DNA of 64,000 nt. Origin: Microglena sp. YARC. Its lineage: Eukaryota; Chlorophyta; Chlorophyceae; Chlamydomonadales; Chlamydomonadaceae. Under the pieces are notes generated by a model. The model had not been told where the DNA came from, ran no database searches, and saw only the letters and a program-made list of their open reading frames with translations. The stretch spans positions 39,963,668 through 40,027,667 of the forward strand of contig CM039462.1 in NCBI GenBank assembly GCA_022414725.1, written 5' to 3'. A program made the translations under genes and the position numbers. Position 1 is the stretch's first letter; every line of letters starts with the position of its first letter. Positions 6,401 to 51,169 of the stretch are shown in pieces.

Positions 6401-7660
6401 AGACTCCAAGAAAGGGACAGTGCAGGTATGCTCATGACAGTTGTGCAAGTAAGGAAGTGGATCGGTAGAAATACCAATCCTCAAATACAGCAGAGCTGGC
6501 AATCCTTGGATATCTGGCGCTGAGCGCCTCGTAAAGGTGAGGATGTGGTTTGGGCAGGACCCATCATGCGTCACCTATCCCCGCACTGAGGCGGGAGGGT
6601 TTGATGTGCTAGCCTATCTACTAGGATGGTTTCCCCCCAGTCAGATTCAGGTCGCAGGAGCCCTGCCTTCAAAGCCATACCTTGAACATTCTTAGGACAT
6701 TTCCAAGATCAATTAGGTAGAATGTGTCGTCAAGGTCGTGTTTTTCAATCAATTTGCTAGCCTCCTTTTGGATGCTGTTGACACCACCTGCAACAGAATG
6801 AGAAATGGGACAAATTACTGCCGGTCCATGGGCTTCGGGATGCACATTGTTCGTATGACAGACACATGCAGGCTAATGGGTGAGCAAGTGATTGTGCTGG
6901 CCAAAAACCCAAACGGAATCATGTCAGTTCAGTTTGCATGGCTTCATGCCAGGTCAGTCTTCACGTACAGGTGGCAAAGAAGGCGGCAGTTATAGTCGCG
7001 AATCGATGCAGCTGTCTTATCGCATCAATATCCTTACCATGAGGAATGTGCTCGACGGCGAAGTCAGTGAGCACAGATGCTGCGGCAACCTTGCCAGAAA
7101 CCTGATACTGCCAGGACCGGAGGAGCCGCTGCACGTCGCTTCCCCCGAACGCTGGACCACGGTCAACTGGCTGAACGTAGTGGTCCAAATCTACCACCTC
7201 CTCGGGCTGGGCCTTAGCGTCGAGGGTGGATGCAACAGCCAACTGCAGGTCAGCGAAAGGCGCGGGATAGTCTACATTTAGTGGTTTGAAGAGACAAAAG
7301 CGGCGCAGGAGGATATTGAAGGCGCCGGGGTGAGAAGCTACAGCGCAGCAGGCAAAGGCCATGGAGAAAAATAAGTTCATGTCCACAGGACGCTAATCAG
7401 TGGTAACATAGAGGAAATCGACAGGGAAGCATCGGCATCAGTGCCACCAAACAGCATCGAAGGCATCAGAGACATCAGGCACCCACATTGGCCTTTGATG
7501 CGTCAGCCTTCCAAGATCTGCCAGAGGAATTGGAGTCGCGGCCAAATTGATTAACTTGGCAGTCCATGCTGAGACCGGGAAGGCTTCCGTAGACACCATC
7601 CACTCCATGAGGCTCTGAATTATAACTCGAACTAGGAATCATAAGAGCGGTGCTCGACAT
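3425..7660 (-). CDS. ODC: Ornithine decarboxylase, six exons
   Basis: This enzyme decarboxylates ornithine to putrescine with pyridoxal phosphate (PLP), the first step of polyamine synthesis. Exons on the minus strand are 7660-7483, 7337-7038, 6787-6681, 5697-5265, 4811-4427 and 3746-3425. All introns have GT-AG ends and all phases close, giving 574 residues. Visible group IV decarboxylase signatures in order are PFYAVKCH with the PLP-binding lysine, FDCAS, SFHVGSAC (usually SFHVGSGC), DIGGGF, AEPGRYF, WGPTCDS with the active-site cysteine, and FPNAGAYTVAGACDFNG. The protein is about 100 residues longer than most eukaryotic ODCs. The excess is an N-terminal extension of about 140 residues encoded by the first two exons, which I do not recognise. 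The first intron has a weak donor (G|GTGCC), so exon 1 and the start are the least certain parts. Confidence 0.9.
4118..4420. repeat. Degenerate tandem repeat in the last ODC intron
   Basis: Irregular copies of a unit around tgtggaagagc(a/t)tgaggct and acatg fill this part of the intron between 4426 and 3747. The unit length varies because of indels. No coding role is seen. Confidence 0.6.

Positions 7661-11620: not shown

Positions 11621-11671
<51 letters not shown>
11621..11671 (+). repeat. Poly-G tract of 51 bases
   Basis: This is an uninterrupted guanine run. Similar long G or C runs occur in introns at 14311-14328, 21370-21386, 23835-23857 and 25498-25537. Confidence 0.95.
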
Positions 11672-13054: not shown

Positions 13055-16000
13055 TCATGCTTCATTTCCTACATGGGCAGTTCCTACGTGACCAGGTTCT
13101 CCAGGCTGAGGCGGGTACTGATGGTCAGTGCCCACGATAATTCCAATGCCCTTGGTTCGGCCCTCGCGGAAGACGAATCTTGTGTTTGGTGTGATGTACT
13201 CCGGGCGCTGCAGAAACCTGGGAGCAGGAAGTTACAGCTGCAATAAGCATACAAAAGGAAGAGTGTCTCCTTCCTTTAGACATTTATTTACAATTTAATT
13301 GGTAATTATAACGTTTCTGTTAGTTATTCAAGACCCATTACAGCGTACTTGTTACTGGGTTGAAGTTTTTCTTTTTTAAGTGCTGCAGCTTTAATGAAAT
13401 AATTCAGGTTCAGCTTTGCGAGAGCGCCAATGTTGAGCAGCAAAACCAACATGCACGAGGAGCCAAAGCAGCTCATACCTATGGACATGAAGAAGACTCA
13501 TGAGTATAGAATGGACAATTTCCTGGATCCTGCTCCTCAACCACTTTCCTGGATCCTACTACTCAACCTCCTCAACCACTTCCCCGAATCCCACTACTCA
13601 ACCTCCTCAACTTACTCCCCTTCCTGCTCAATCACCAGGACCCTACCACTACCAGGACTCTCACCAGGACCACCACCACCAGAGCAGCAGGCATAACCGA
13701 GGCTCACCTGAAGCGGACGCAAGCACGGTCACCAGATCTTAGTGTCTCGCAATCCATCGCGACCACCCGGGCAGCTTGGCGAATGATCTCACAATGAATG
13801 ACAGCCTGCAAGTGGGACAGGTGGATGGTGGTGGATATCAATAATTCACTCACTGTAGAAGTTGACAGCTCTCACTATTTTATTCTCTGTGGACAGCAAA
13901 GCACGCCAACTACTGTGGACAGCAAAGCACGCCAACTTCTACATCATTCTCTGTGGACAGCAAAGCACGCCTGACTACCCTGTGCACTGCATGGGTTGCT
14001 GGCTGTGAGCGTTTGGTGCGGTGCCTTGTACCACTGTCCCGCACTATACGCCGCTTAGGGTTGAACTGGTGACACAAGTGGAAAAATAGCGCCTGGAGGG
14101 GCGTGGTGTTAAGGGGACCCTCCCGTTCGCCGCAGCTGGGGGAATTCACATCGGAAGAATGCGAATGTGCTACACGAATGTAAAGAGGGAAATGAGCAGC
14201 GAGACAGTAACATCGAATGTTCGAATGTTGGTTGACACCAAACCTGTTTTCTATCTCCTATATCCCTTGAATTTCCCTTGACCCTACCTCCATGCCTCCC
14301 CCATCCCTCTGCCCCCCCCCCCCCCCCCGCCTTAACTATCCTTAACCCGTCTTAACTATCTATGATTTCTATGCTTATATAGCAGGGTCCAGACCCAGCT
14401 CGGCAGGGTCTATCCCGTTTCGACGAATAGCTCAGTGGGAGAGCTCATTAAAATGACAAAGGTTCAAATCTTTACGGGTGCAATTTATTGTCCGCCGTCT
14501 CTGTCAACTGCTATGGTACGTTTGTCCAGGTAGCAGCTCGTTCCCTACCGCCGAAAGACGGGGCTCCCTTAATACCATTTCCCCACCAGGCGTTATCATT
14601 ACATTTAAGCAGCTTGTTCCCTACTGCCGTAAGACGGGGCTCCCTTAATACCACGCCCTACCAGACGTTATCAATTTTTCAACAGCGGAGACTGGAAAAA
14701 TTGGGCACACGCACTCATGTCCTCACCTGGTAGCGGGGCTGGATAGTTGTGGTGGTGGTGTGATGCTGGTGGTGTAGTGGTGGTCAGGGTGGGTGGGTCA
14801 GTGAAAGCAGGTGGCAGGCAGGGATTGTGTCCTCACCTGGTAGCGGGGTTGGATAGTCGTGGAGTGCGTGAGGATGGCAATATCGGCGTCGAATTCCCAG
14901 CTGGACTTGGGCTTAGCGCGCTCATCCACCATGACCATGCCCTTCCTGACCTGGGGGGTGGGGGGGAGGTGATGGTGGGCAGGGGTGGGGGGTGGTGGGG
15001 AGGAGGTGAGAGTGGAGAGGGGAGGGGTGGTGGTGGGGGTGAGAGTGGAGAGAAGGGGGTGGGGGGTGGGGGGAGGTGAGAGGTGAGAGGGGGTGGTGGT
15101 GGGGTAAAACATACAAGCTTATTTCTGGGCAGTGCTAGGGATCTAAGTTGAAATTTTCAAAAACAGAAATCTACAGTGGAAGGAGACGAGAGATTGAGAC
15201 GGATGATAACAAAAAGCCCTTCCCTGCCGGTCCAAGGGTACCTACTTGTTCATTCGTGATCGGGGGACTTCACAAGACAACAATCACTATCACAAACAAA
15301 CTGTTCCAATCACAAACGAGCCCTGCCAATCACATATATAACATATTGAGTTTAGGGCTAGCGAAAGAAAGACACACATTTTCAAGCGAAAGGTCTACCG
15401 GAAAAAAAATTAAAAATCATCCTGACTTGGCTGCGCTTCACTTTCTCGAGGGCCAGCGTCTGTCTGCCCGGCCGCAACCTGGCTGACTGGGAGACGCTTG
15501 ACAAATGAGCTCCGCCAATCACAAACTAACTCTCCCGATCATTTATAATATTATGAGTTTCGGGCTAGCGTAGGGAGACACACCATAAGGTTCTAAAAAA
15601 AAAAGAAAAAAAGCATTAGGTCCATTTCCAAAACAAATCCTGACCTGGCTGCGCTTTACTTTCTTGAGGGCCAGGGCGGCTGTCTGTCCGGCCGCAACCT
15701 GGCTGACTGGGAGACGCTTGTAGTGGATTGACTTGATGGACACTGCCTTGAAGCTGCCATCGCCAATGTCAGGGCCTGCCGTTGGTAGGCAGGGTGGATG
15801 GGTCAGTGAAAGCAGTGGACAGGGTGGATGGGTCAGTGAAAGCAGTGGACAGGGTGGATGGGTCAGTGAAAGCAGTGGACATGGTTGTGGGTGGTTGGCT
15901 TGAAGGGTGCACATAGGTGGTTGTGGGTGGTTTGCTTGAAGGGCGCACATACCGATGAGAAAATGGGTGCTTGGTTGTGGGTGGTGGTCTTGAAGAGTGC

Positions 16001-19000
16001 ATGTACCAATGATGCGGTGGTTGTGAGCGGTTTGCTTCAAGGGCGCACATACCAATGAGGTTGTTAGTTGTGGTTGGGTGTCTTGAAAGGCCCATGTACC
16101 AATAAGGTGGTTGTGGGTATTTGTCTTCAAGGGCGAACGTACCAATGAGAAGGTGGTTGTGGGTGGTTGTCTTGAAGTGTGCATGTACCAATGAGAAGGT
16201 GGTTGTGGGCGGTTTGCTTCAAGGGCGCACATACCAATGAGGTTGTTAGTTGTGGTTGGTTGTCTTGAAAGGCCCATGTACCAATAATAAGGTGGTTATG
16301 GGTATTTGTCTTCAAGGGCGAACGTACCAATGAGAAGGTGGTTGTGGGTGGTTGTGGTTGTCTTGAAGTGTGCATGTACCAATGAGAAGGTGGTTGTGGG
16401 CGGTTTGCTTCAAGGGCGCACATACCAATGAGGTTGTTAGTTGTGGTTGTCTTGAAGGGCGCATGTGCCAATGAGAAGGTGGTTGTGGGCGGTTTGCTTC
16501 AAGGGCGCACATGCCAATGAGGTTGTTAGTTGTGGTTGGGTGTCTTGAAAGGCCCATGTACCAATAAGGTGGTTGTGGGTATTTGTCTTCAAGGGCGAAC
16601 GTACCAATGAGACGGTGGTTGTGGGTGGTTGTGGTTGTCTTGAAGTGTGCATGTACCAATGAGAAGGTGGTTGTGGGCGGTTTGCTTCAAGGGCGCACAT
16701 ACCAATGAGGTTGTTAGTTGTGGTTGTCTTGAAGGGCGCATGTGCCAATGAGAAGGTGGTTGTGGGCGGTTTGCTTCAAGGGCGCACATGCCAATGAGGT
16801 TGTTAGTTGTGGTTGGGTGTCTTGAAAGGCCCATGTACCAATAAGGTGGTTGTGGGTATTTGTCTTCAAGGGCGAACGTACCAATGAGAAGGTGGTTGTG
16901 GGTGGTTGTGGTTGTCTTGAAGTGTGCATGTACCAATGAGAAGGTGGTTGTGGGCGGTTTGCTTCAAGGGCGCACATACCAATGAGGTTGTTAGTTGTGG
17001 TTGGTTGTCTTGAAAGGCCCATGTACCAATAATAAGGTGGTTATGGGTATTTGTCTTCAAGGGCGAACGTACCAATGAGAAGGTGGTTGTGGGTGGTTGT
17101 GGTTGTCTTGAAGTGTGCATGAACCAATGAGAAGGTGGTTGTGGGCGGTTTGCTTCAAGGGCGCACATACCAATGAGGTTGTTAGTTGTGGTTGTCTTGA
17201 AGGGCGCATGTGCCAATGAGAAGGTGGTTGTGGGCGGTTTGCTTCAAGGGCGCACATACCAATGAGGTTGTTAGTTGTGGTTGGGTGTCTTGAAAGGCCC
17301 ATGTACCAATAAGGCGGTTGTGGGTATTTGTCTTCAAGGGCGAACGTACCAATGAGAAGGTGGTTGTGGGTGGTTGTGGTTGTCTTGAAGTGTGCATGTA
17401 CCAATGAGAAGGTGGTTGTGGGCGGTTTGCTTCAAGGACGCACATACCAATGAGGTTGTTAGTTGTGGTTGGTTGTCTTGAAAGGCCCATGTACCAATAA
17501 TAAGGTGGTTATGGGTATTTGTCTTCAAGGGCGAACGTACCAATGAGAAGGTGGTTGTGGGTGGTTGTGGTTGTCTTGAAGTGTGCATGTACCAATGAGA
17601 AGGTGGTTGTGGGTATTTGTCTTCAAGGGCGCACATACCAATGAGGTTGTTAGTTGTGGTTGTCTTGAAGGGCGCATGTACCAATGAGAAGGTGGTTGTG
17701 GGCGGTTTGCTTCAAGGGCGCACATACCAATGAGGTTGTTAGTTGTGGTTGTCTTGAAGTGTGCATGTACCAATGAGAAGGTGGTTGTGGGCGGTTTGCT
17801 TCAAGGGCGCACATACCAATGCGTTGGTTGGTTGTGGTTGTCTTGAAGGGCGCATGTACCAATGCGAAGGTGGTTGTGGGCGGTTTGCTTCAAGGGCGCA
17901 CATACCAATGAGGTGGTTGTTTGTGGATGGTTGTGGTTGGTTGGCTTGAAGGGCCCATGACTTGTACCAATGCGAAGGTGGTTGTGGGTGGTTGGATTCA
18001 AGGTGAACGTACCAATAAGAAGGTTGCAGTTTTGTGTGATCACTCCTTTCTTCACCGTGCCTGCCACAACAGTGCCAACTCCAGGGACACCAAATGTCTC
18101 GTCGATGACAAACTCAGGTAATTCTCCAAGCTTTTCAAACCATCGCTGGCGCTGAGGCATGAGGTTGTAGAACATGCGAACCAGATCCATACCTTCACCT
18201 GGGGGGTTGAATGGGTGCGTGGGTGAGTAACGTGGGTGGCTGAAACCCGTGGGTGAGTGAGTGACTTGGCAGGAAAGGCGCTTAAAAAACCATAACGCAG
18301 TTAAAAAAGGCAAGGCAAGACAGAAAAAGGCAAGCCATGGAAGGCAACATTAAAAAACCACACTTAAAAACAGGAAAGGCAGTCTGAACAAATCCCATTA
18401 CCTATTACATCCAAGGTGGGAACACAGGGGGCCAGGGAGTTTTTTTTGTTTAATTGCCTTTTCTGTTTCAAGGTTGCGCAAGTCTGTTTTGACACGTTAC
18501 AATGTAAATGAAGTTGTGAACGAGCACTCCCCGTACCTGCTACAGCCAAGGTTGAGAAACACAAAGGCCAGGGGTCGCAAAATAGACTTCAGGGGACTGA
18601 CCCAACCTTATAAAAGGACTGGCAGTTAAAACAAACAAGCACTCCCGGTACCTGTTACAGCCAAGGTGAGAACTGAGGAACACAGGAACACTTACCCAAC
18701 CTTACAACAGGACTGGTAATTAAAACACACAAGCACTCCCTGCACCTGTTACAGCTGAGTTGAGGAACGAAGATGCACTTAACCAACCTTACAACATGAC
18801 TGGCAGTTAAAACAAACAAGCACTCCCTTCACCTGTTATAGCCGAGTCCGGGCCATTATATAGCCTGAGTTAGCTGTAACAGGTACGGGGAGTGCTTGTT
18901 CACCACTTCATTTGCGTTGGGACGTGTCAAAACGGACTTGCCTAGTTGCCGAGACACACCTAGAAACCAACCTGTAACGTTTCAAAACGGATTTGTCTAG

Positions 19001-22000
19001 TTGACAAGTCGCACCTAGAACCCAGCCTTACAAACAGGAAAGGCAGTTCAACAAACAGAAAACACTCAATGTACCTGCCACAGCCAATCCAGGAACACAA
19101 GGGCCTGGGAGTCGGGATAAACCTTAAAATTGATATTATGACAGTAGAATGAGGAATGTTCTACAGGGCTCAAAAACACAACCTTACAAACAGGAAAGGC
19201 AGTTAACAAAAACATATTTTTACCTGTTACAGCCGAGGTGAGGAAGACAGGGGCCAGGGAGTCGGTGTTCATGTTACGAGCACACAGCAGGACTTCGTCA
19301 GCAGTCCTGGAAGAAGAAAAAGGCGACAATGCGAATGGAGGTGTGAATGCGGGTGAGAAGCCAAAATAGGCATATAGGACAATGCACACAGCAGGTCGGT
19401 GAGATGTGCAAAATGAGCCTAATAAAGACACGTGGTTCCTGAGGTGCTCCCGTTGATAAGACCTGTCACAGTCATCTGCTGCTTAGCCCGTTTCAGTGAT
19501 ACGATTGGTCTAGTGGTACACCAAATCGCTTTAACGAAGCAGGGTCCGGGGTTTAATTCCCCCTACGATCACCCTGAGCGTTGCAGGTCGTTGCCAACCG
19601 CTATGGTAGCTTGTCCAGTCGAGGTGGTAGACCATTCTCTGCCTGCGTACGACGGGTTTCCTTAATACCGCGCCCCACCAGGCGTTATCATTACATCTGC
19701 TGCTTATGGTGTACCGTTACATACATGCATACTTCGATTGCACCGTGTTTGTGCTCTGACTATAGAATACATATGAATGGGCAGAACAATACACAGTGAG
19801 CAGTGCAACGTGAGCCTAACACAGACCGGTTGTTCCTGTGGTGCTTGTGTTGGGAAGACCTTGCCTAAGTCTTGCACATACATTTGAACGGGCAGAACAA
19901 TATACGGTGAGCAGTGAAACGTGAGCCTAAACAAAAAACAGTTATATACATACATTCTAATGGGTAGAACAATACACGGTGGGCAGAGCGACGTGATCCT
20001 AACAAGTAAGAGTTGTTCCTGTGGACAAGAGCGTAATATAGAGAAGAAACACCTGGAGGGGCGTGGTGTTAAAGGGACTCTCCCGTACGCCGCAGCTGGG
20101 GAAAGTCACCACCAAAGAGCTACAAATACATACCTGACAAGGAAAGACTGGACTCATTTTTTGTGCATCAAATTCTTAAAAATAAAGCCAACCTACATTG
20201 CATGCATATACATACCTGACAAGGAAAGGCTTCTTGCGAACTCCAGGCTTCTTCAAAATATTCGCAAGAGTCTGTAAGAAGACAAAGAGAGACAGTTAGC
20301 TTTTTCAAGTCAGTGCTTTTTCTTTTTAAGCCCCTCATGTCACGGTTGGGCAAGTCCCTTGAGCCTACTTGGCCTAACCCTGGACTGTAGCAACATACAA
20401 ACAGTTGGCACCTCCCTCCTCCACCATCACACGTTCAGCAAACTGCGGCCTACCACCCTCCCTCGCACACCCCTCCCCCTTCTCCCTCTCCAATATACAC
20501 AGTTGCCACCTCCCTCCACCACCGACCCCACTTGGAGCAATATGTGCTCCACATGCCTCCCTCGTACACCCCTCCCCCTTCCCTTCTCCCTAAAACGCAG
20601 ACAGCAACACCCTCCAACACCACACCTTCAGCAATCTGTGCTCCACCACGGTCCCTCTAACACCCCTCCCCCTCCCTTTCTCCATTTCCCCGAAACACAG
20701 GATGTACCCCCTCCCCTCCCAAATCTTCCATACACACAGCCGGCACCTCCCTACTCCACCTACCCAACCTCCAGCAATCTCCCTCACTCAACCCCCCGCC
20801 ACTTTGACTTTTTCTTCTTTTAGTTGTTAAAGGATTTTCACCCCAGGAGGTGGGACTACATACACAAACCAGCAACACCGAGGATTCAGTCTGACTGACC
20901 TGTACAGTCTGCTTCAGGATGTGCTCCGGGCAGATGTCAACCTTGGTGATGACGAAGAACGCTGGAACCTAGGGGCAGATAGGTAGGTATGTGTGTCAGG
21001 AAAATGCTGATTAGGGCTGTTTAGCTAGTGAGTCAGTTGAGTATTTGTGTACTTCTACACCTAGCATAGATGTACATCAGAGCTCATCTAGCATGGATGT
21101 AAACCAAGTGCACACCTAGCATGGACGTACATCTATGCACAAGTGTACAAACTGGGGAAGTCACACTTGATTCCAGCACATTATTACGTTGTCTTAGGCA
21201 GGAAAGTGTTGTCCCAAGACACAAGTCTACACCACAACTTAAAAAGGGGCCTTCCAATCCAAAACAATCAACTGACGGGACGACTTTATAACACAGTCTG
21301 ATTTGCTGGGGTGGTGAGTGGGTGTTGGGGGGGCTGGTTGGAAGCTGGGATGTGTGTGTGTGTGTGTGAGGGGGGGGGGGGGGGGGTAAGTACTGTTAAG
21401 CAATGGCGCACCTTCAGAGCCAGAGCCACACCCAGATGCTCCTTGCACATGCCGACAACTCCCATGTTGGCTCCGACAATAAGGCAGGCGTAGTCAGGCA
21501 GGTGACCTACGCGGATGGCAATAAATAAATTAATACATCAATCAAGTAAGCCAAGCAAATCAAGCAAGCAAACTAAACAAATCACTTAAAGGCACGAATG
21601 TAGTTTGGGGAAGGAATGGAGGGCAGTACACTCCAGGTGTACCAACTCTACACAAGCTTGAACATGACTTTTGAACTTAAGGAACAGGTGTCTTACGTAC
21701 ACCATGAAGCTCCTAGTATCCTTTGGGGGTGCTGCAAGCAGTGTTTTTGGCGGAGCCCCCACGGTTACCCATTTGTCCGTTTGACCGACCGACCATCTGA
21801 CCGAGACAAAGCCTGACACGTCAGCCAACAGTCTCGTAACTAACTCGCTTCCGTTTCCACCTGCCACTCCGTCGAGAACACCCTCCCCATTTGTTAGCGT
21901 CGCTTGCGACGCTGAACAGAACTTGTTGCCTCAAATAAGCAACCTCAAAATGTGGAGACGTAGCACCCCCAAAACACCAATACACATAATGTAGCACTTC

Positions 22001-25000
22001 ATTACAAGCGTGGGCTTCAACTCACACACCTGCGAGGCCGTAAGCAGTGGTCCTTTGTCGATGTAAGCTTTGGTCCTGAAGTTCTTCTCACAACCCATCT
22101 CAACATAAACTTACACACCGGCGAGGCTGTAAGCAGTTTTCCTTAAGTACTCTTCACAACCCATCTCTACACGATTGCATACACCTGTGAGGCTGTAAGC
22201 AGTGTCCCTGAAGTACTCTTCATGACCCATCTCTACACAAACAAACACACCTGTGAGGCCGTAAGCAGTGGTCCTGAAGTACTCTTCACCACCCATGTCT
22301 ACACATACGTACAAACGTACACTCGTGATTCCGCACGCAGTGGTCCTGAAATACTTTGCATACTACTTGGGCAATGCAGAGCTGCATGATACAATACAAT
22401 TACAATATCGCACTTGTCCCCAGGGTCAGTGTTTTTATTTCAGATTTCTGTAGTCCAGGTTGAGTAGCTACTTGGGCTACTCAGCCCTGATTTCAGGATA
22501 GTTGCGTAGCCATCTCATGGCCGAGTGCTAAGCGCGGAGCCTGAGGGTTCGGGGGGCAGCGCGTTCCGTTATCGGGGGCTCTGGGGGGTGTAGCATTCGA
22601 TGGAATGGCGACGCGTCATCGAAAAAATAAACACTGCCCAGGGTACTACATACTACCAACAACCCATCTCTACACAAACAAACACACCTGTGAGGCTGTA
22701 AGCAGTGGTCCTGAAGTACTCTTCACCACCCATGCCTACACAAACAAACACACATGTGAGGCCGTACTCAGTGGTCCTGAGGTACTCTTCACCACCCATG
22801 TCTACACAAACGTACAATACAGAGCTGCAAGATACAATACAATTACAATATTGCACTTGTCCCCAGGGTACTACATACCGCCAACGACCTATCTCTACAC
22901 AAACGTACGCACCTGTGAGACCGTAAGCAGTGGTCCTGAAGTACTTCTCATGCCCGGCAAGGTCCACCAGAGTGATGATCTTGGAAGCACGTGAGATGTA
23001 GTCACCGCAGGTTTGCGTCCTGGATCACAACAGTGAAGAGGGTTAGACACGCATGCTTATACAGGATGCCAGAAGTTCAACAATGTCTAACAGAGTCTTG
23101 GGATAACTGGAGATGGCATCTACAAGTTTGCGTCCTGGATCACAGAAGTTAAGGACGCTTACTGTACATAATTGTGTTATACTGGATGCTAGCAGTTCGA
23201 GGAAGGTAAAGCAGAGTGATGAGCTTGGATCATGAAGTTGAAATGTAGTCACCACAGGTTTGCGTCCTGGACCACACAGAAGTGGAGGAGGTTAGACAAG
23301 GATGCTTATGCAGGATACTAGCAGTTCAAGCAAGGTTAAACAGAGCGATGATCTTGGGATAACTTGAAATGTCATCTACATGCTTGCGTCCTGGACCACA
23401 CAAGTGAAGGAGGTTAGACATGCATGCTTGTACAGAATGCCAGCAGTTCAAGCAGGGTCAAGCAGAGTGATGATCTTGGAAGCACGTGGAATGTGATCAC
23501 CACAGGTTTGCGTCCTGGATCAAACAAATGAATTGCTTATTCTGGTTTTGCAGCAATGGTTAGAAAATTCAGTTTGACGGCTGAAGATCCCAGAAGTAGA
23601 CAATGTGCCCCTGGACAGGAATTTTACAAATGTAAAGGAGATTAGATAAGGATTCCGAGACAGGATGCCAGAAGCCCAAGCTGAGCTGATGCTCCAGGGG
23701 TTAGTCTGATGTCAGTCTTTTTTATATCAGATTTCTCTAGGCAAGGTTGTGTAGCTGGTTGGGCTACTCAAGCCTGCTTTCAGAAAAGTTGAGTAGCCAC
23801 CGGATTTTCGTAGTGCACCCCTTTCAGTTCGGCCGGGGGGGGGGGGGGGGGGGGGGGCAGATTTAGGGGTCTTAAGGGAAACATGCAGACTCTGAGGATG
23901 GTTAAACATCGAAACGCATCACGACTTGCAACAGCTTGCAAATTTATCCCCAGGAGTTGGTCTGATGATGGTTTCAGCATAAATCACGAAGGATGCAATT
24001 GGTCAAAAGCTGATTCCCTCCTTCAAAATCAAACATTACACGTTCAGGTACGTAACGTAGATGGAAGCCAATACCACCAAAATGCATCACGACTTGTAAC
24101 AGCTTGCACATTTCTCTCCCATGTCCCTCTAAACAAAAGTGTCAAGGCACATACCTTGTTGGCCAATATAAAGAGTGCACTTAATGTAGCACTTGGCCTA
24201 CAAGTAGCACCTTCAAGAAACCACTGGTTCACAACCTCACAAGGCCCCAAGGTGAACCTGCTGCAGGTTCACCACTTGGCTTACCCGGAAGCTCTATCAT
24301 TCAGAACCTTTCCAGTGCTGTCAAGACACATTTATTACTGGCCGATATAAGCTGTGCACTTAGTGTAGCACTTGGCCTACAAGTAGCACCTTCAAGCAAC
24401 CCCTGGTCCACACACTCACAGACCCTCACCCCAAGGTCAGCCCGCCGCCTGTTCTATGCTGGTCTTACCTGAAGGCTTCATCATTCAGGACCTTTCCAGT
24501 GCTGTCAAGACACATATCATGCTGTCCAATGGAAGCTGTGCACCTACTGAAGCACGTGGCCAATATGAGCTGTGTACTTGATGTAGCACTGGCTGATAAA
24601 ATAACTCCCTGGTTCACACCCTCACACAGTCCCAAGGTCAACCTGCCGCTTGTTCATCACTTGGCTTACCCGGAAGCTCCGTCATTCGGGACCTTTCCAG
24701 TGCTGTCAAGGCACAGATCATGCTGGCCGATATAAGATGTGCACTTAATGTAGCACTTGGCCTGCAAGTAGCACCTTCAAGAAACCACTGGTTCATACAC
24801 TCACAGGGCCCCAAGGTCAATCTGCTGCAGGTTCGATGCTTGGCTCACCTGAAGGCTCCATCATTCAGGACCTTTCCAGTGCTGTCAAGACACAGATTAT
24901 GCTGGCCGATAGAAGACGTGCGTCCAGTGCTCTCTTCGTGACTATGCTTGAACACCTGCAGACAATAATTACAACAGACCATCAATACCATGAAAGTCAG

Positions 25001-25497
25001 ACAGTGTATTGCCAAGCAGATTATGCTGGCCGATAGAAGACGTGCGTCCAGTGCTTTCTTCATGACTATGCTTGAACACCTGCGGACAATAATAACGACA
25101 TCCCATCAATGCCATGACAGTTAGCCAGTGCATTGCCAAGCAGGTTATGCTGGCCGATAGAAGATGTGCGTCCAGTGCTCTCTTTTGTGACGTGGCTTGA
25201 ACACATGTGGAGCATAGACACAAATTAAATCTGACAGACAACAATAACATCCCATCAATACCACGACCGTCAGACAGAGTCAATTGAAGATGTGCGTCCG
25301 GTGCACTCTTTGTGACTATACTTGAAAACCTGTGGATGAAAATAACAACAGCCCATCAATACCATGACAGTCAGCCAGAGCGTAGTCTAGCAGATTATGC
25401 TGGACGATAGAAGACACGCACCCAGTACTCTCTCCATGGCTATGCTTGAGCGCATGCGGAGCCATGTTTCGTTTTTTCTGCCAAGGTTGAAATCGAG

Positions 25498-25537
<40 letters not shown>

Positions 25538-28500
25538 AGGGACCAACGGTTTAGTCCTCATCCTGCCACTTTTTCCTTTTGCGCCTTCCCATGTAATAAA
25601 AATGAGTCCTACCTTGGAGCGAGCAAGTCCTCTGCCATCATCCTGACACGAGCATGTTGGACTTGCCATGTCACACTGGGCTAGGTTTTATGAGATGCGC
25701 CCTCTCTTGTTTTCCCCCTGTATAAAAATAAAAAAACGTAGAAGACCCCTCCCAGATGTTGTGGAGCGGGCTTGTCTTGGGCCAACAATAGCCTGCCGAT
25801 GAGAATGTAATGAAAAGGAGTCCTACCTTGGACCGAGCAAGTCTCCTGCCGTCATCCATTGATGAGCGAGTGAGCACTCCCACCAAGATGGACTTGCCAT
25901 GTCACACTGGGCTAGGTTTTATCAGATGCGCCCTTTCTCAGTTTCCAACTGTCACCAAAATACCCTTTCTTGGTTTCCAACTGTTAACGAATAATATATA
26001 CAATACAAAGGAGTCCTACCTTGGAGCGAGCAAGTCCTCTGCCATCATCCAGTAATGAGCGTGTGAGCACTCCCACCATTGTGGACTTGCCACTGTCAAC
26101 ATTCCCAATGATGGCAACTCGGATCTGCAGAGAAGGCAACAGGGTACTCATTACTCATGTCCAATGATGGCAACTCGGATCTGCAGAGAAGGCAACTGGT
26201 TAATCATTACGCATTTCAAATGATGGCAACTCAGATCTGCAGAGAAGGCACCAGGAATGTTTACATACATACATACATACATACAAGAAATAATCATCCC
26301 TGAGGCCTGCATGCCACCTACCTCAATGGGGGGCGCAGTGCTGCTGGTGGAGCTACGCCTAACCAGGACGTCAGCGATCTCACATGTGACTGAAATCAGG
26401 TAGATAGAGAGGTTAGTTGAAATCAGGTAGGCATAGAAGTTTGTTGAAATCAGGTAGGCATAGAAGGTTGTTGAAATCAGGTAGGCATAGAAGTAAGTTG
26501 AGATCAGGTGGGCATAGAAGTTAGTTAAAATCAGGTGGGCATAGAAGTTAGTTGAAATCAGGCGGGCATAGAAGTTAGTTGAAATCAGTTGGGCATAGAA
26601 GTTAGTTGAAATCAGGTGGGCATAGAAGTTAGTTGAAATCAGGTGGGCATGTAAGTTAGTTGAGATCAGTTGGGCATAGAAGTTAGTTGAAATCAGTTGG
26701 GCATAGAAGTTAGTTGAAATCAGGTGGGCATTGAAGTTAGTTGAGATCAGGTGGGCATAGAAGTTAGTTGAGATCAGGTGGGCATAGAAGTTAGTTGAGA
26801 TCAGGTGGGCATATAAGTTAGTTAGATCAGGTGGGCATAGAAGTTAGTTGAGATCAGGTGGGCATATAAGTTAGTTGAGATCAGGTGGGCATAGAAGTTA
26901 GTTGAGATCAGGTGGGCATAGAAGTTAGTTGAGATCAGGTAGGCATAGAAGAGAGTAGAGTATGAAGATATCAGATCCTTGGTTGCACATAGGTCGTACT
27001 TGTGTGAAAGTGTGATCATTATAATACAAAAATAATACATGCAAGAAACCATTTGAGAGGCTCCACCATCCCAACGGCTCCACCATTCCTCCATCCGTAC
27101 GGCTTAACCATCCCTCCATCCCTCTATCAGAAGGCTACGGATCGACCATACCTCTACATTTTAAATTTAAAAGGGCCACTCTTTGAAGGGGTAGGGAGGT
27201 CAAACCGCTGTAGAAGGGGAAAACAACCCTCTTTAAAACTTTTTAAAAATAGCCAAAGCTACACTTTTGCAGTATATCTACACCACCCCTTTTTAAGAAG
27301 GCTAAAGCTCTACCCTCCCTCGATCTCTACGTCTCCATCATCCCTCCATCCCACCCATCCCTCGATCCCTACAGCTCAACCACCCCCCCCATCCCTCCAT
27401 CCCTACGGCTATACCACCCCTCCATCCCTACGGCTCTACCTTTCCTCCATCCCCAACATCCCCCATCCTTACGGCTCCATCATCCCTCCATCCCTACAGC
27501 TCAGCCATCCCCCCATCCCTCGGTCCCTATGGCTAGACCATCCCTCCATCCCTCCGTCTCTACCTTTCCTCCATCCCCCATCCTTAAGGCTCCATCATCC
27601 CTCCATCCCTTGATCCCTACAGCTCAGCCATCCCCCCATCCCTATTGCTCCAGCATTCCTCCATCCCTACGGCTCCACCCTTTCTCCATCCCCACCTACC
27701 CCAACTTTACAGCTCTATCATCCCTCGATCCCTACAGCTCCACCATTCTTCCATCCCTACGGCTCCAACCTTCCTCCATCCCCACCATCACCCATCCTTT
27801 CGGCTCTATCATCCCTCAATCCCTATAGCTCAACTGACCCCCCATCCCTCAATCCCTATAGCTCAACTGACCCCCCATCCCTCAATCCCTTAAGCTCAAA
27901 TGACCCACCATCCCTCAATCCCTTCAGCTCAACAGACCCCCCATCCCTACGGCTCCACCATTCCTCCATCCCTACAGCTCGACAATCCCACCATCCCGAA
28001 CCCCTACGGCTCGACCATCTCTCCTTCCCTTGATCCCTCCGCCCCCACCATCCCTCCACAAAGAAGGCTAAGGCTCCACCATCCCCCCACCAGGAGTCTA
28101 CGGCTCACCAGTGACTAGGGATCGGCAATATGATATCATATGATATCGTGTCATCATATGATATCATATGATGCCGGCGGCCTGACCAGGTACCTTTGGC
28201 CTGGGGCATCATATCATATGATATTAAATCATATGATTTGTGTATTATATCATATGATATCATACTCGTCTTTGGTCAACATCATATGATTTGCCGTTCC
28301 CTACCAGTGACTCCTCCCGACTTGATTTCAGCCTGACGCTCCCGTATGACTGTCAGCTGGGTTGCATTCTCTGTGGCAGCTTTTTGCATCTTGTCCAAGC
28401 AATTGGCGAGTTGTTCCTTGGTCATGCCCACAGGGCCCCAGCCGTTGGGCGCACCCACTTGGAGGACAATCTCACCCATCTCTGTAACCTGAAGAGTACA

Positions 28501-31500
28501 GGTTTAGGGGTTAGGGGATTGGTGGTTGACCCTAGTGCAAGCAAACGGGCTGGTCCCCTCAACCTCCTGCTTTGCAATAAATTGTCTTATTGATTTTAGG
28601 GTTAGGGGTTAACATCTACATCCTGAACATTAACCCCACAAACCCACCCACGCACAAAACTAAATGAAAAACTCGCCTGAACATCTTTTGTCAAACCAAG
28701 TGGCGAGCTGTCCCCTGTTCGTGCTTAAGACAGCGAGCAGCCAAATTGCTGGCTGGAGCTATGTTACCAAGTGCAAGTTCTAATTCCTTGCTCATTCCCA
28801 CAGGGCTCCAACCGTTGGGCTCACCCACTTGCTTCTATCATTGGTACAAGAGGAAAAAACGATTCTCTTGTCGATGCAGCTAACAATGCACCTCCACGAG
28901 CGCAAAATGTTACCAAGTTCAAGTTCAAATTCCTTCATCATGCCCACAAGGCCCCAGCTGTTGGGCGCACCCACTTGGAGGACAACCTAACCCATCTCTC
29001 TAACCTAAATAACACAAGTTTAGGGGTTAGGGGATAGGTGGTTGGCCCTAGTGCAAGCAAACGGGCTGGTCCCCTCAACCTCCTGCTTTGCAATAAATTG
29101 TCTTATTGATTTTAGGGTTAGGGGTTAACATCTACATCCTGAACATTAACCCCACAAACCCACCCACGCACAAAACTAAATGAAAAACTCGCCTGAACAT
29201 CTTTTGTCAAACCAAGTGGCGAGCTGTCCCCTGTTCGTGCTTAAGACAGCGAGCAGCCAAATTGCTGGCTGGAGCTATGTTACCAAGTGCAAGTTCTAAT
29301 TCCTTGCTCATTCCCACAGGGCTCCAACCGTTGGGCTCACCCACTTGCTTCTATCATTGGTACAAGAGGAAAAAACGATTCTCTTGTCGATGCAGCTAAC
29401 AATGCACCTCCACGAGCGCAAAATGTTACCAAGTTCAAGTTCAAATTCCTTCATCATGCCCACAAGGCCCCAGCTGTTGGGCGCACCCACTTGGAGGACA
29501 ACCTAACCCATCTCTCTAACCTAAATAACACAAGTTTAGGGGTTAGGGGATAGGTGGTTGGCCCTAGTGCAAGCAAACGGGCTGCACCCCTCAACCTCAC
29601 GCTTTGAGTTTCTTTGAGTTACCAAGTTCAAGGTCCTTGATCATGCCCACAGGGCCCCAGCCGCTGGGCTCGCCCACTTGGAGAACAACCTCGCCCGTCC
29701 CTCTAACCTGACAGAACATTGGCTTAGGGTTTAGGGTTTATGGTTATCACCTACACCCTCCCCCCCCAGGATACTACATTTTGTAAAACATTGTCAGCAC
29801 TTGAAGTGCTCAACCGTCAAATTGGTCAGCGCTTTTTAGTGCAAAAGCGCAACAACTGCGCAAGGGGGTTGAAAAAACTGCGCAAAATGCGCAGTGGGGC
29901 GCGCGCTCTTTGTAGCACCCTCCTCCCCCCCCCACCCCCCACACACTGACACACACAAAACTAAATGAAAAACAGGTGGAAACATCTGTTAGCCAACCAA
30001 CATTGGTGGGTTTATCGCACTTGGCGAGGTGTGGGACTGTTGCTTGCAGCCCCAGGAGTTGACCCATTACCCTGGTTGAAGGAAGCAGCCAGAAGCCAAG
30101 CCAAAAACTCACCTCCTTGTTCATGAAGCCAATAGCATGCTCCGAACAGACATCCCCTGTAAAAATAAAAAACTGTAGCAAGAAACATAAAATTCACCTC
30201 CTTGGCTATGAAGACAACAGCATGCTCCAAATAGACAACCCCTGCACAAATAAAAACACAGTAAACAGACAGTAAACAAAACTATAACTCACCTCCTTAG
30301 TCATGAAGCCAATAGCATGCTCCAAGCACACTTCGAAGTCAGCTGCATTGGTGGGGTTCTCGCCTGCAAGAGGCATGCCACTATTTGCTGCAGCCCCAGG
30401 AGATGACCCGTTACCCTCCTTGGAAGAAGCAGCCTGCACAAGAGCGTTAAAAAAAGGTAATGGTAACGCCTGGTGGGGCGTGGTGTTAAGGGAGCCCGTC
30501 GTACGCGGGTAAGGAGCGGTCTTCTACCTCAACTGGACAAGCTACCATCACGGTTGACAACGACCTGCACCGCCAAGAGCGACCAAAGGGGGGTTGAACC
30601 CCCGACTCTTCATCCTCAGAGTGATTTGGTCTACCACTAGACCAATGTATAACACTAAAACGGGCTATGCTACATCATGTATCTGATAGAAAGTCATTTC
30701 AGCCGCGCAGATTTAGGCAGATTTAGGCAGATGGTGCGGATTTGAAGGGAGCAGATGGAGCTGATTTGAAGTAAGCGGATGGAGCAGATTTGAAGTGGGC
30801 AGATGAAGCAGATTTGAAGCGAGCGGATGGAGCAGATTTGAAGATTGAAGTGGGCAGATGGAGCAGATTTGAAGCGAGTATAGGCAATGCTTCTTTTAAA
30901 TGCTGCAAGTAGCAGCTTCTAGGCAGCTCCCTGGCCCTGTCCTAGGGCCGAATCTGAAGGAAGCATCCCAAAGCAGTTGCAAGCGTTTGGTTTAACCCAG
31001 TGGCTGGCTAATGGCGCTGGTGGGAAGCTGCTAGGAATAGCCCCCCAAATGAACAGTGGGTATACGAAAGGTCACGCTGCATGTGTACCACACTCAATGT
31101 AGAAGAGACCCCACTGTTACTCTGGTGACCCTGGAGGAGCGTCGATACCCTAGGGTTATTTATGCCTACTCTACTATACCACAATCTAGTTTACCATAAT
31201 ATTGCATGGGATCAAGGGGGTGATGAGCACACCCATCCCATTCAAACATACCGTGAATGGCGGGCACGAGCTACCATCTTTGGGCCATGATAAGAATAAA
31301 CAGGCTTGCACGCATGACGCACGCAGTAGGCACACCAACTGCAAGATTATCGAGATTGTCCCAAACCGAGGATGATCTAGAAGATAATCTTGTGCGAACG
31401 AAACCCAACTACCAATCATATTTCTGCGGTCAAACCGATGCATGCGCCTCACCTGCGTGGCCTCGGGAGTAGCTGTACCAAGATGCATCTTTGAGTTGAT

Positions 31501-31623
31501 TTCGTCGGCAAGGAGCTCCACAGCCCCGTCATTCTCACGCAGGGACGTTAGGCCTTCGACCCACCCAGGCACACCATCCCCAGTGGGGCGGGTGTGGTGG
31601 TGCATGCTCTTACGGTGAGACAT
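13055..31623 (-). CDS. GTPBP1: GTPBP1-like translational GTPase, 16 exons
   Basis: This is a GTP-binding protein of the GTPBP1/GTPBP2 family, related to elongation factor 1A and acting in mRNA surveillance and ribosome-linked functions. Exons on the minus strand are 31623-31453, 30433-30293, 28488-28305, 26389-26322, 26124-26020, 24955-24849, 23019-22913, 21506-21412, 20968-20900, 20271-20216, 19306-19224, 18198-18013, 15775-15645, 14950-14837, 13805-13708 and 13217-13055. They sum to 1,878 bases with every phase closing, giving 625 residues (human GTPBP1 is about 670). Visible motifs are the P-loop GNVDSGKST in exon 5, the switch I region GRTSSIGQ in exon 6, DLAGHEKY (G3) in exon 7, TKVD (G4) in exon 9, and the beta-barrel domains with [11 protein letters not shown] and KGMVMV. 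The last exon has [12 protein letters not shown]. The gene is complete but stretched over 18.6 kb by repeat-filled introns. Confidence 0.93.
13868..13975. repeat. Triplicated 35-40-bp unit in a GTPBP1 intron-flanking region
   Basis: The block tctctgtggacagcaaagca with cgcc and a variable linker is repeated three times. It lies in the intron upstream of exon 15. Confidence 0.7.
14079..14135 (-). repeat. SINE tail fragment
   Basis: Read on the minus strand, the segment carries the ccttaacaccacgcccc / ccaggcg module. The same module ends the SINE-like copies at 14421, 19494 and 30456. Confidence 0.5.
14421..14682 (+). repeat. tRNA-derived SINE, copy A
   Basis: The head has a tRNA-type D-arm (tagctcagtgggagagc) and a weak B-box (ggttcaaatc). 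A body follows with tctgtcaactgctatggta and tgtccaggtag. The tail cttaataccac...ccccaccaggcgttatca is present twice in a row. The anticodon arm is shortened, so this is not a functional tRNA. Confidence 0.6.
14719..14751 (-). repeat. Exon 14 edge copy in the downstream GTPBP1 intron
   Basis: This is a near-exact copy, 110 bases away, of the end of exon 14 with its donor (minus strand ...CCCCGCTACCAG|GTGAGG). It keeps the donor GT and would offer a second 5' splice site. Confidence 0.7.
15417..15490 (-). repeat. Exon 13 3'-part copy in the downstream intron
   Basis: About 74 bases match the end of exon 13 (real copy around 15637-15718), including the AAGCGCAGCCA|GTCAGG-like edge. The coding sense is partly lost through substitutions. 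Confidence 0.7.
15890..18000 (-). repeat. 2.1-kb array of units carrying the exon 12 donor site
   Basis: About forty short units (roughly 43-57 bases) fill the intron downstream of exon 12. Read on the minus strand each contains a version of CATTGGTACGT.CGCCCTTGAAG, which resembles the true exon 12 end ATTG|GTACGTTCACCTTGAA. Units are arranged in higher-order blocks; the blocks at 16589 and 17057 are 468 bases apart and almost identical. Histidine/threonine/asparagine-rich frames through the array are a by-product of the repeat. Confidence 0.85.
18397..19112 (-). repeat. Dispersed copies of the exon 11 end
   Basis: At about 18405, 18538, 18652, 18746, 18830 and 19072 the minus strand repeats a diverged version of the exon 11 end and its donor (SAVTG|GTA...). 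The real copy ends at 19224. One copy near 18870-18885 is inverted. These copies fill the intron between exons 11 and 12. Confidence 0.75.
19494..19694 (+). repeat. tRNA-derived SINE, copy B (tRNA-Val-like head)
   Basis: A-box tggtctagtgg and B-box-like gggtttaattcc flank an anticodon arm whose loop ttaacga would give anticodon AAC. The acceptor stem pairs poorly. The body and tail (gtcgttgccaaccgctatgg, ttaataccgcgccccaccag, gcgttatcattac) match copies A and C. Confidence 0.65.
20045..20105 (-). repeat. SINE tail fragment
   Basis: On the minus strand this fragment contains the ctttaacaccacgcccc tail module without a recognisable tRNA head. It lies in the intron between exons 10 and 11. Confidence 0.5.
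20125..20152 (-). repeat. Exon 10 edge copy
   Basis: The atacatacctgacaaggaaa block repeats the real exon 10 end and donor at 20212-20232. It lies about 85 bases further into the intron and keeps the donor GT. Confidence 0.65.
20819..20895 (+). repeat. Dispersed repeat, copy 1
   Basis: The block tttcaccccaggaggtggg ... aaaccagc ... gaggattcagt also occurs at 34318-34390. It immediately precedes exon 9's donor side. Its type is unknown. Confidence 0.5.
21720..21976 (+). mobile_element. MITE-like element with 12-bp inverted ends
   Basis: The sequence tttgggggtgct at the left end is matched by a perfect inverted agcacccccaaa at the right end. The interior contains gaccgaccgacc and is non-coding. 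It lies in the intron between exons 7 and 8. No clear target duplication was found. Confidence 0.45.
22025..22340 (-). repeat. Tandem copies of the exon 7 end, block 1
   Basis: About four units of roughly 75-80 bases repeat, on the minus strand, a diverged version of the last 40 bases of exon 7 (residues [12 protein letters not shown]) plus the donor and the start of the intron. They follow the real exon, which ends at 22913. Confidence 0.8.
22430..22620 (+). repeat. tRNA-like / dispersed repeat segment
   Basis: The tagctacttgggctactcag block has a relative near 23745-23810. It is followed by a tggccgagtgctaagcg stretch resembling a tRNA A-box and D-arm. No complete tRNA can be folded by eye. 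Confidence 0.3.
22670..22900 (-). repeat. Tandem copies of the exon 7 end, block 2
   Basis: Two to three further copies of the [16 protein letters not shown] exon edge with donor stand directly next to the real exon 7 end (22913). Confidence 0.8.
23090..23525 (-). repeat. Repeated copies of the exon 7 start (acceptor side)
   Basis: At least four copies of the acceptor edge of exon 7 (minus strand GATCCAG|GACGCAAACC) occur in the intron upstream of exon 7. Several preserve the AG and the coding start. Confidence 0.8.
23835..23857 (+). repeat. Poly-G tract of 23 bases
   Basis: An uninterrupted G run lies within the intron between exons 6 and 7. Confidence 0.95.
24160..24740 (-). repeat. Tandem copies of the exon 6 end
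   Basis: Three copies, about 200 bases apart, repeat the exon 6 end (cattcaggacctttccagtg on the plus strand) with the adjoining donor. They lie in the intron downstream of exon 6, whose real end is 24849. Confidence 0.8.
25000..25440 (-). repeat. Tandem copies of the exon 6 start
   Basis: About four copies of the switch I-coding start of exon 6 (residues [17 protein letters not shown], variably preserved) lie in the upstream intron at roughly 120-150-base spacing. The copy at 25013-25075 keeps an open frame and an acceptor-like AG. The copy at 24849-24955 is chosen as the real exon because only it continues to a donor in phase. Confidence 0.8.
25498..25537 (+). repeat. Poly-C tract of 40 bases
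   Basis: This uninterrupted C run (G run on the gene strand) lies in the intron between exons 5 and 6. Confidence 0.95.
25600..25905 (-). repeat. Two copies of the exon 5 end
   Basis: Copies of the exon 5 end with donor (plus strand gagtcctaccttgga.cgag) occur at about 25607 and 25819. The real one is at 26011. The second copy even keeps the residues [16 protein letters not shown]. Confidence 0.8.
26155..26250 (-). repeat. Two copies of the exon 5 start
   Basis: The acceptor and first codons of exon 5 (plus strand aatgatggcaactcggatct) are repeated twice directly upstream of the true exon start at 26124. Confidence 0.8.
26395..26960 (-). repeat. 27-bp minisatellite seeded at the exon 4 acceptor
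   Basis: About twenty copies of gttgaaatcaggtgggcata with gaagtta follow one another. The first unit overlaps the exon 4 acceptor (minus strand CTGATTTCAG|), so the array resembles expanded acceptor-side sequence. Confidence 0.85.
27050..28100 (+). repeat. Degenerate CCATCCCTACGGCTC array
   Basis: One kilobase of irregular units of the type ccatccctacggctc with tccacc fills the intron between exons 3 and 4. Proline/serine-rich frames here are not genes. Confidence 0.8.
28117..28302 (+). mobile_element. Palindromic MITE at the exon 3 donor, copy 1
   Basis: This 186-base element has ends AGGGATCGGCAA and (inverted) AGGGAACGGCAA. The interior is made of overlapping ATATGATATCATAT palindromes. 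It is flanked by a perfect 10-base duplication, accagtgact, at 28107-28116 and 28303-28312. That target contains the exon 3 5' splice site. Confidence 0.85.
28503..29534 (-). repeat. 516-bp near-perfect tandem duplication
   Basis: Bases 28503-29018 recur at 29019-29534 with almost no differences. Each copy carries a degenerate version of the start of exon 3 (minus-strand residues around [14 protein letters not shown]). A further copy lies at about 29630-29710. Confidence 0.9.
30100..30225 (-). repeat. Two copies of the exon 2 end
   Basis: Copies of the exon 2 end (residues [11 protein letters not shown] and a shorter piece) with their donors lie 80-190 bases downstream of the real exon 2 donor at 30293. 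Confidence 0.8.
30456..30652 (-). repeat. tRNA-derived SINE, copy C
   Basis: On the minus strand there is an A-box TGGTCTAGTGG and a B-box GGGGTTCAACCCC, then the same body (GTCGTTGTCAACCGTGATGG) and tail (CACGCCCCACCAGGCGTTAC) as copies A and B. The anticodon arm differs from copy B. Confidence 0.65.
30683..30880 (+). repeat. 21-24-bp minisatellite
   Basis: About eight units of gatttgaag(c/t)gagcggatgg with agca occur in the intron between exons 1 and 2. Confidence 0.75.
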
Positions 31624-33105: not shown

Positions 33106-33876
33106 ACATACTTAATGTTGATTCACAACTTGAATCTTGTTGTATAAACGCGTTCTTTTTTTGAATTAATTCTGGCCTCCGTTGGACAATTCTTTATGCT
33201 GCCTAGTTGCCGCCTTGTAAGCTTCTACATTTGTTTAGAAGCCCAAAACTGATGTTTTCTTACCCTTGCCCCATGTTGGTCCTGTGCATCAACACCACTA
33301 TACGGTTGTTCAAAATGGCGAAACCAACGTCGAAATGGTGAAACCACCGTTTAAATAGCAGGGTGACCAGGCCCGGACGGGGCCCCCCTAATGGTAGGCC
33401 CTAGTGGTGCATGGTCGGACTTTAGGAGTGCTGGCGTCAGGTGACTAGCATGGGAAAAGTGAGACCACTATGCATAAACGGCCAATATCAGGCGACAGGT
33501 GCATATGTGGCTGGTGTCAGGTGACAGGCGGTGACAGGTGCATATGCTGCAGATATCTCAGATGACAGGTGAATACGCGGGTTAATCTTTAGGGCCAGAC
33601 AACAATAACAAACAACATAATTAGGGTTGTTGGTACTTTTTGAACTAGAGTTGTTGGTACCAAAGCATTACTTGGCTGAGGGCCGACCAACTCTCAAGTA
33701 AGTCCCACAAGTGCCACGACTTACATTTAAAGGTGGTCCTATGCATCACTCACTTATCAAGGCTTTGTGTACTTCCAGGCACCATACGCATATGCAGTAC
33801 ATACATATGCATGACTGACCCCACGCTAGGTCAACTTACATTTGAAGGTGGTCCTCTGTATCACATACTTTTCAAT

Positions 33877-34062
33877 AGGGAACGGCAATATGATATCATA
33901 TGATATCATCTCATTATATGATATCATCTCATTATATGATATCATATGATGCCGGCAGTCTGACTTGGCTGAAGTTACAATTTATATACAATATCATATG
34001 ATGCAGTTTGTATGATATTCTATGATATCATACTTGCCGTTGGTCTACATTGTATGATACCC
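33877..34062 (+). mobile_element. Palindromic MITE, copy 3 (right end degraded)
   Basis: The left end AGGGAACGGCAATATGATATC and the atgatatcat palindromes are clear. The right end is diverged, and no target duplication could be matched. Confidence 0.6.
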
Positions 34063-34074
34063 AAAGCTAGTTCA

Positions 34075-34260
34075 CCCTACATGGAGGCTGAGTGGCTTTG
34101 TCTATGTCAACCCCTGTTGTTTGACACATCTTGCTTTACCTGGACAAAGCTACCATGGCGATTGACAGCGACCGCGCACCCTAAAGCGCATTCGTAAGGA
34201 TTCACCCTCCTGGGAGGCAGAGTGGCTTCGTCTACCTATCTATGTAAAAGGAATTCTATT
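34075..34260. repeat. SINE-related fragment
   Basis: The tggacaaagctaccatgg / cgattgacagcgacc part matches the SINE body on the minus strand. A ggctgagtggctttgtcta/ggcagagtggcttcgtcta pair is a short direct repeat at either side. Confidence 0.35.
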
Positions 34261-34317
34261 GCTGTAGGCTCATGTGTCCATATTGGTTTACCAAAGTTTT
34301 TTTTTTAAGATGTGAAA

Positions 34318-34390
34318 GGTATTTCACCCCAGGAGGTGGGTCTCCCTAAACAAACCAGCGCACTCAGGATTCAGTTCGATTGGCGTTGCC
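34318..34390 (+). repeat. Dispersed repeat, copy 2
   Basis: The block tatttcaccccaggaggtgg ... aaaccagcgcactcaggatt matches the one at 20819. Nothing else is recognised between 34391 and 35029. Confidence 0.5.
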
Positions 34391-35029
34391 AAATCAGACA
34401 ATGGTTTCTCTAGTTTGTGAGCGGGTGGTCTTGGCTTGGCTTGGTATCTGTTAGTGGTATCTGTTAGTCAAGGTACGCAAGTGCTTTTTCCGACTATCAT
34501 AAATATGCATGGCTTCCTCTTACCCTCTGATTGAGTTCACAGGGACTGCAAGCGTGCATCCATGCGCCATATATTTTAATTTTCCGCTACGAGCAGAAGC
34601 TTTCGGCAGCTCCTTGAGCCAGCCATTGGTCCAAAGCCCCAAGATTTAAATTAGTCCTGAAAAGCTTACGACCTGTTATAAATATGCATTGGTTTCCATA
34701 CAGTCCTAGTATGCAAAGCAAAACCTACATTGTGATATGTGTGGTATGTTGTTACATTAAAATATCTCACAAGCGTTGTATGTGATTCACAAGTTGCAAC
34801 AAACAACACATGGTCACTGACAGCATGCGCCATAGCTTTTCTTTGAATCATTATCAATCGTTTTACCGATGGGGGCCCTGACTTCATGGTCAGTGAACAT
34901 TCAATGCTACAATTACAATTATGCCATGTATGGCTGTACCTTTTTTATTGTAAGACATTAGTCCCCAGTGTGCATATGGAGCCATGGCATAGCTTTTCTT
35001 TTCCGCTACCGAGCAGCAGCCACTACAAA

Positions 35030-51002: not shown

Positions 51003-51169
51003 ACTGATTCTCCTAACAGGAGGTGTGCGTTGCTATGTGAGTTGGCGTTGCTGCCTGTTTTTTGGTGGACGTTCGATCGGAATATCTGCGAAAGGCGATT
51101 ACGTATGGGCAGATCGGCTTGGCGCCAGTCGTCTGCTGATAGGGAACAGTAAATGAAACGTCTGAGTGG

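Follow-up and report, generated by a model that had tools for sequence, protein, structure and literature searches.

Why should the introns of an ordinary gene contain copy after copy of the edges of their own exons? This question is raised by a GTPBP1-like gene in a window of 64,000 nucleotides from the green alga Microglena sp. YARC (assembly GCA_022414725.1, contig CM039462.1, positions 39,963,668 to 40,027,667 of the forward strand; coordinates below count from the first base of this stretch). An earlier note on this DNA had described such copies, here called ghost edges, and had offered two explanations, namely a process that copies splice-site neighbourhoods or the growth of introns through recurrent duplication of local DNA. 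The present analysis confirmed that the pattern is real and recurrent and points to an ordinary cause. The ghost edges are very probably the leftovers of frequent local tandem duplication, and no splice-site-directed copying is required.

The GTPBP1-like gene lies on the minus strand, with the start codon beginning at 31623 and the stop codon ending at 13055. The gene model has 16 exons joined by GT-AG introns and encodes 625 residues (exon 2 was placed by alignment to algal homologues), and the exon numbering used previously agrees with it. Exons 1 to 8 are located at 31453-31623, 30293-30433, 28305-28488, 26322-26389, 26020-26124, 24849-24955, 22913-23019, and 21412-21506, and exons 9 to 16 at 20900-20968, 20216-20271, 19224-19306, 18013-18198, 15645-15775, 14837-14950, 13708-13805, and 13055-13217.

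BLAST searches with exon sequence alone as the query (E<=0.01) against the introns of this gene gave 38 same-strand matches within the adjoining introns, but none on the opposite strand and none in non-adjacent introns. Summed over 20 dinucleotide-shuffled intron sets, there was no adjacent same-strand match and there were 7 matches of other kinds. Copies that cross the exon-intron junction numbered 59 at 13 of the 30 edges, and none was detected in a non-adjacent intron of the gene. The affected edges were the ends of exons 2, 5, 6, 7, 10, 11, 12, 13, and 14 on the donor side and the starts of exons 3, 5, 6, and 7 on the acceptor side. The earlier note spoke of at least eleven edges and listed 14; the 13 above stand, and the start of exon 4 does not, because the 27-bp array that reaches its acceptor (26391..26951) matches the intron side only. 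Donor copies generally lie downstream of their exon and acceptor copies upstream, a layout that geometry forces on any copy within the adjoining intron. It is not invariable as had been stated, since one copy of exon 2 nt 1-88 lies downstream in intron 2.

The copies were mapped as follows, all on the minus strand. The region 30001..30230 carries end-of-exon-2 copies (junctions 30197 and 30112) together with the copy of exon 2 nt 1-88, and 28688..29735 carries start-of-exon-3 copies (junctions 29707, 29520, and 29004) with further partial copies and a young 516-bp tandem duplication. Exon 5 is flanked by copies of its start at 26161..26260 (junctions 26236 and 26180) and of its end at 25595..25904 (junctions 25826 and 25612). 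Start-of-exon-6 copies occupy 25017..25453 (junctions 25453, 25329, and 25079, with a partial copy at 25204) and end-of-exon-6 copies occupy 24284..24742 (junctions 24669, 24468, and 24284). For exon 7, four start copies (junctions 23514, 23390, 23266, and 23134) are found at 23110..23514 and seven end junctions, from 22753 to 22029, at 22029..22786. The end of exon 11 is repeated at 18401..19115 (junctions 19074, 18832, and 18401, and partial copies), and the exon-12-end array at 15915..17934 alone holds 27 of the 59 junction-crossing copies. Single copies represent the ends of exon 10 (20123..20149, junction 20133), exon 13 (15426..15500, junction 15426), and exon 14 (14726..14752, junction 14726).

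The pattern had been presented as a feature of one gene, which proved too narrow. A search of the same genome (568,105,699 bases in 2,390 contigs) for the chaperonin family PF00118 gave 64 matches, from which eight loci (L027-L034) were chosen out of gene-like clusters, beginning with those that were longest and had the most exons, a choice biased towards long introns. Profile matches guided the placing of exon limits, together with splice consensus and reading frame, and seven introns contain an exon left unplaced. Exon copies in an adjacent intron were found at 25 of 63 edges in the eight loci together (L027, 5/12; L028, 4/12; L029, 2/8; L030, 6/9; L031, 5/8; L032, 0/4; L033, 0/6; L034, 3/4), and the same exon-copy count gave 11/30 for the GTPBP1-like gene and 0/8 for the control, a neighbouring ornithine decarboxylase (ODC) gene of five exons (3425..7380, minus strand). 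Two of the counted edges (L027 exon 6 end and L034 exon 3 start) rest on exon-interior copies short of the edge, and copies reach the edge at 34 edges in the ten genes. Thus 6 of the 8 chaperonin loci share ghost edges, and the pattern was present in 7 of the 10 genes examined. A codon-score gene search across the 284 kb around the window yielded few genes. Two further observations were made in the chaperonin genes. L028 intron 4 is a likely GC-AG intron, and otherwise conserved exons (L031 and L027 exon 5) contain frame breaks that may reflect a decayed paralogue, sequencing error, or polymorphism.

The ten genes pooled gave 113 adjacent same-strand exon matches, no adjacent opposite-strand match, and no non-adjacent match within the same gene. 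The 35 cross-gene matches involved chaperonin genes alone, with 34 joining the paralogues L030 and L031 and one joining two others, so that no single element copied at many genes, as expected of Introners, was recognised in this set. These results bear on the proposal that transposable elements (Introners) or retrocopies brought the edges into the introns. A candidate element is present, a 188-bp sequence resembling a miniature inverted-repeat transposable element (MITE), placed exactly at the end of exon 3 (28116..28303); its ends are inverted, it has an 8-bp target duplication, and it is not a tandem ghost. In having target duplication and inverted ends it is like some Introners (PMC9860276). 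The ghost edges differ from Introners in being local to their own exon and without a shared element; they match the adjoining exon only, and they continue across the junction into intron sequence, which is absent from spliced retrocopies. For the tandem ghosts this origin is already contradicted, and we consider it extremely unlikely. The present donor GT of exon 3 is formed by the last target base and the first base of the MITE-like element, with the former donor context on the far side of the element. Similar ends occur at 33106 (minus strand) and 33876 (plus strand).

Repeated mis-joining of reads during assembly could also have produced such copies, since tandem repeats assemble poorly and the window contains a 1,000-base gap at 38395-39394. 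However, the best junction-crossing alignments are 67-98% identical rather than near-perfect, and several contigs have loci with the same pattern, which makes an assembly artefact highly improbable.

The position of the duplications relative to the splice junctions was analysed in 43 of 51 introns, leaving out one intron truncated where its locus stops and the seven that contain an unplaced exon. A base was counted as duplicated if a direct copy existed within the same exon-intron-exon unit. The duplicated fraction was 0.44 in both the first and the last ten intron bases and 0.38-0.65 deeper in the intron; on the exon side it stood at 0.39 and 0.35 over the first 20 bases and was no more than 0.02 past 120 bases. 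In 15 of the 43 introns the donor junction was spanned, with at least 13 nt covered on both sides, and in 15 the acceptor junction (35% in each case), compared with 44% of random interior intron points. No enrichment of junctions over interior points was found in the 43 introns (paired Wilcoxon p=0.14), and thresholds of 8 or 20 nt gave similar results. By these tests, the splice junction is not special. Beyond the genes, 36% of bases had a direct copy within their tile (208 tiles of the surrounding 284 kb, with the two window genes excluded). Within the window, heavy local direct duplication was also observed outside the two genes, with means of 65% of bases at 33200-38390 and 37% at 39400-53900.

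These data speak directly to a junction-directed process, such as DNA breakage at exon boundaries or renewed copying of the sequence around splice sites, which would favour edge copies. It could account for the hits at 13 of 30 edges in the GTPBP1-like gene, a number slightly exceeding the mean of one random model. Nevertheless, junctions were duplicated no more often than interior points, the same duplication habit was found outside the two window genes, and the copies showed no order of age with distance. In 9 of 25 families the nearest copy was also the one with the highest similarity, where 8.6 would be expected; nearest copies are therefore not the youngest. We regard a junction-directed process as very unlikely, and the first of the two original explanations is not borne out. 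The second fared well, as direct copies cover 57% of the intron bases of the GTPBP1-like gene, against 2% for inverted copies, and intron length correlates with the duplicated fraction (Spearman 0.56, p=8e-5, 43 introns). Serial copying at an edge was considered separately and rejected, no trend of divergence with distance being seen in 14 families with at least three copies (mean rho -0.17; 9 negative, 5 positive).

Local tandem duplication would explain the pattern in the following way. Direct tandem duplication of stretches of non-coding DNA is common in this genome, in introns and elsewhere. A duplication falling wholly within an exon, or engulfing one, would alter the messenger RNA (mRNA) and be lost, whereas one within an intron or across a single exon edge would be tolerated, selection thus presumably acting as a filter. 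Edge-straddling events would survive because the outermost splice site still gives the right mRNA; the copy still attached to the exon (the first donor or the last acceptor) would yield the correct mRNA, and the other would become intronic. Slippage or unequal exchange between copies, the probable route, would multiply them later, and introns would therefore grow. The spliceosome would have to ignore the ghosts, and, judging from the conserved protein model, regular splicing of the host gene is likely undisturbed.

The form of the duplications was examined at the ghost edges of the ten genes, comprising 20 donor and 17 acceptor edges. The offset to the nearest copy ranged from 82 to 516 bp, with a median of 159. 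The ends of the young 516-bp duplication in intron 2 overlap by 52 bp, an arrangement that points to slippage or exchange among repeats already in place. Microhomology was not retained as a general feature: among 57 young tandem duplications, 16 had an overlap of at least 20 bp, a count inflated by partial extra copies. Templated insertion as a general signature was likewise dropped, as the spacers of 17 edges were mostly nearby repeats, low-complexity, or unmatched; the spacer at the end of exon 14 resembles DNA approximately 1 kb upstream.

Divergence between ghosts and their sources in the GTPBP1-like gene was approximately 0.12 on the exon side and 0.21-0.24 on the intron side. This near two-fold gap is expected if exons are constrained while ghosts and introns drift, and the copies diverge as neutral DNA would. 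Mismatches at codon positions 1, 2, and 3 were 10.3, 10.5, and 15.7%, and 4 of 32 ungapped ghost pieces contained in-frame stops. The coding sense noticed earlier is explained by the limited divergence of the ghosts. Between the paralogues L030 and L031, exon 2 differs at 26 of 54 third positions, and the two genes mostly bear ghosts at different edges. Among the ghosts compared between them, 31 of 35 scored higher with the exon of their own gene (8 further ghosts, mostly lacking a placed counterpart exon, stood outside this comparison), and most of the tested copies arose after the paralogues split.

Ghost splice sites might instead have been retained because they are functional, for example in alternative or multi-step splicing. 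The preserved splice dinucleotides were indeed recovered in 58 of 59 junction-crossing copies of the GTPBP1-like gene, and in 38 of 39 when the dinucleotide was masked in the query; with the masked query, copies outside the exon-12 array kept it in 29 of 30 cases, compared with 73% for exon control dinucleotides. The many decoy splice sites that had been foreseen are likewise present as predicted sites: when the exon-12 array was set aside, 41 of 109 ghosts scored equal to or above the real partner, and ghost sites had much higher scores than GT or AG dinucleotides taken at random from introns. However, in the ten genes pooled the dinucleotide was kept in 82 of 97 ghosts and in 88 of 104 nearest exon controls, so ghost dinucleotides were not kept more often. 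The in-frame stops, the equal mismatch at codon positions 1 and 2, and the different edges affected in L030 and L031 also argue against function, which we judge very unlikely. Ghost dinucleotides are read as neither clearly preserved nor clearly purged. As a sign of function, their preservation was suggestive in the GTPBP1-like gene and unclear once the genes were pooled, and it was not adopted.

Several results weigh against the explanation by local tandem duplication. First, the aligned stretch was shorter than 0.9 of the offset at 17 of the 37 edges, where no clean head-to-tail unit is seen; therefore, indels, insertions, or template switching also contribute. Second, pooled dinucleotide retention (82/97) exceeded that of all exon controls (934/1,271, 73%; binomial P=0.007), a P value that treats copies as independent, which they are not. 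Third, no exon copies in adjacent introns were found in ODC, L032, and L033. Fourth, introns cut to 1,200 nt were 47% duplicated, compared with 36% in the tiles (p=0.012 for introns of at least 600 nt). Fifth, the observed number of 13 ghost edges falls at the top of the range from one simulation, in which random tandem duplication proceeded from the non-redundant intron lengths of the GTPBP1-like gene, with only events inside or around an exon rejected and with unit lengths entered by hand from earlier results. It gave an expectation of 9.9 ghost edges (6-13; P=0.09 for the observed 13), a result that also counts in favour of random duplication, and simulations started from 100, 200, and 300 nt gave 24, 20, and 17.

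The identity of the host gene product was examined with a 578-residue model. Pfam matches were GTP_EFTU and its domain 2, and GTP-binding protein 1 was the match among solved structures (E=6.9e-149), with homology across the GTPase core and the following domains, as in GTPBP1 GTPases. The best named relatives, with 78% identity over 87%, were green algae such as Volvox, Gonium, and Chlamydomonas, among the best 120 of 3,624 protein matches. These relatives are chlorophycean.

Other features of the window were noted. From approximately 53977 to 64000 lies a virus-like block in which 2 of 7 open frames given to Pfam matched, one a Pox_A32-like ATPase and one Peptidase_S74; by resemblance, it is possibly an integrated Polinton-like virus. 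Stretches at approximately 30580-30660, 19480-19570, and 14410-14500, judged by eye, resemble short interspersed elements derived from transfer RNA (tRNA) and presumably contain promoter boxes. An ARAGORN scan of the window with the bacterial code detected no tRNA, and an Rfam scan at gathering thresholds was empty. Homopolymers of 40 C (25498-25537) and 51 G (11621-11671) occur on the plus strand.

Structures of the same kind are known from lancelets as mirages, with units of 10-160 bp, for which splicing and length polymorphism have been shown (PMC3087553, PMC3902484). Mirages are tandem repeats that span an exon-intron boundary within the adjoining intron and affect both donor and acceptor boundaries, as was found here. 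In contrast to those units, the algal offsets are 82-516 bp; the lineage is green-algal, 7 of 10 genes are affected, arrays reach 27-fold, and boundary preference was tested and not found. In literature searches, mirages were reported from lancelets only and none from algae, which is weak evidence because subscription journals were mostly outside reach. The structure itself is thus known, and what is new here is the lineage, the scale, and the test against boundary preference. A related case is the potato RdRp gene, in which a tandem duplication across an intron-exon boundary became a new intron (PMC4974935), and tandem duplication has been described as a source of novel introns in Drosophila (PMC2891723). 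In the potato intron gain and the Rogers model, as in the alga, a splice junction is included in a direct tandem duplication, but the algal copies sit inside existing introns.

A wider reading is possible, if somewhat doubtful. Runaway local tandem duplication, and not transposons, might mainly set intron length, and therefore several strong decoy splice sites would be found in most long genes, each accompanied by an exon fragment of its own; the spliceosome would rely on exon definition to choose the outermost sites, and ghosts might steadily feed new introns and exons. In any case, these ordinary housekeeping genes hold many duplicated splice sites in which the real site and adjoining decoys are near-identical, and they offer a natural experiment for the study of intron growth and of the way in which the spliceosome passes over decoys. 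The mirages of lancelets may, accordingly, need no special cause, and one might expect such structures in any genome with frequent local tandem duplication.
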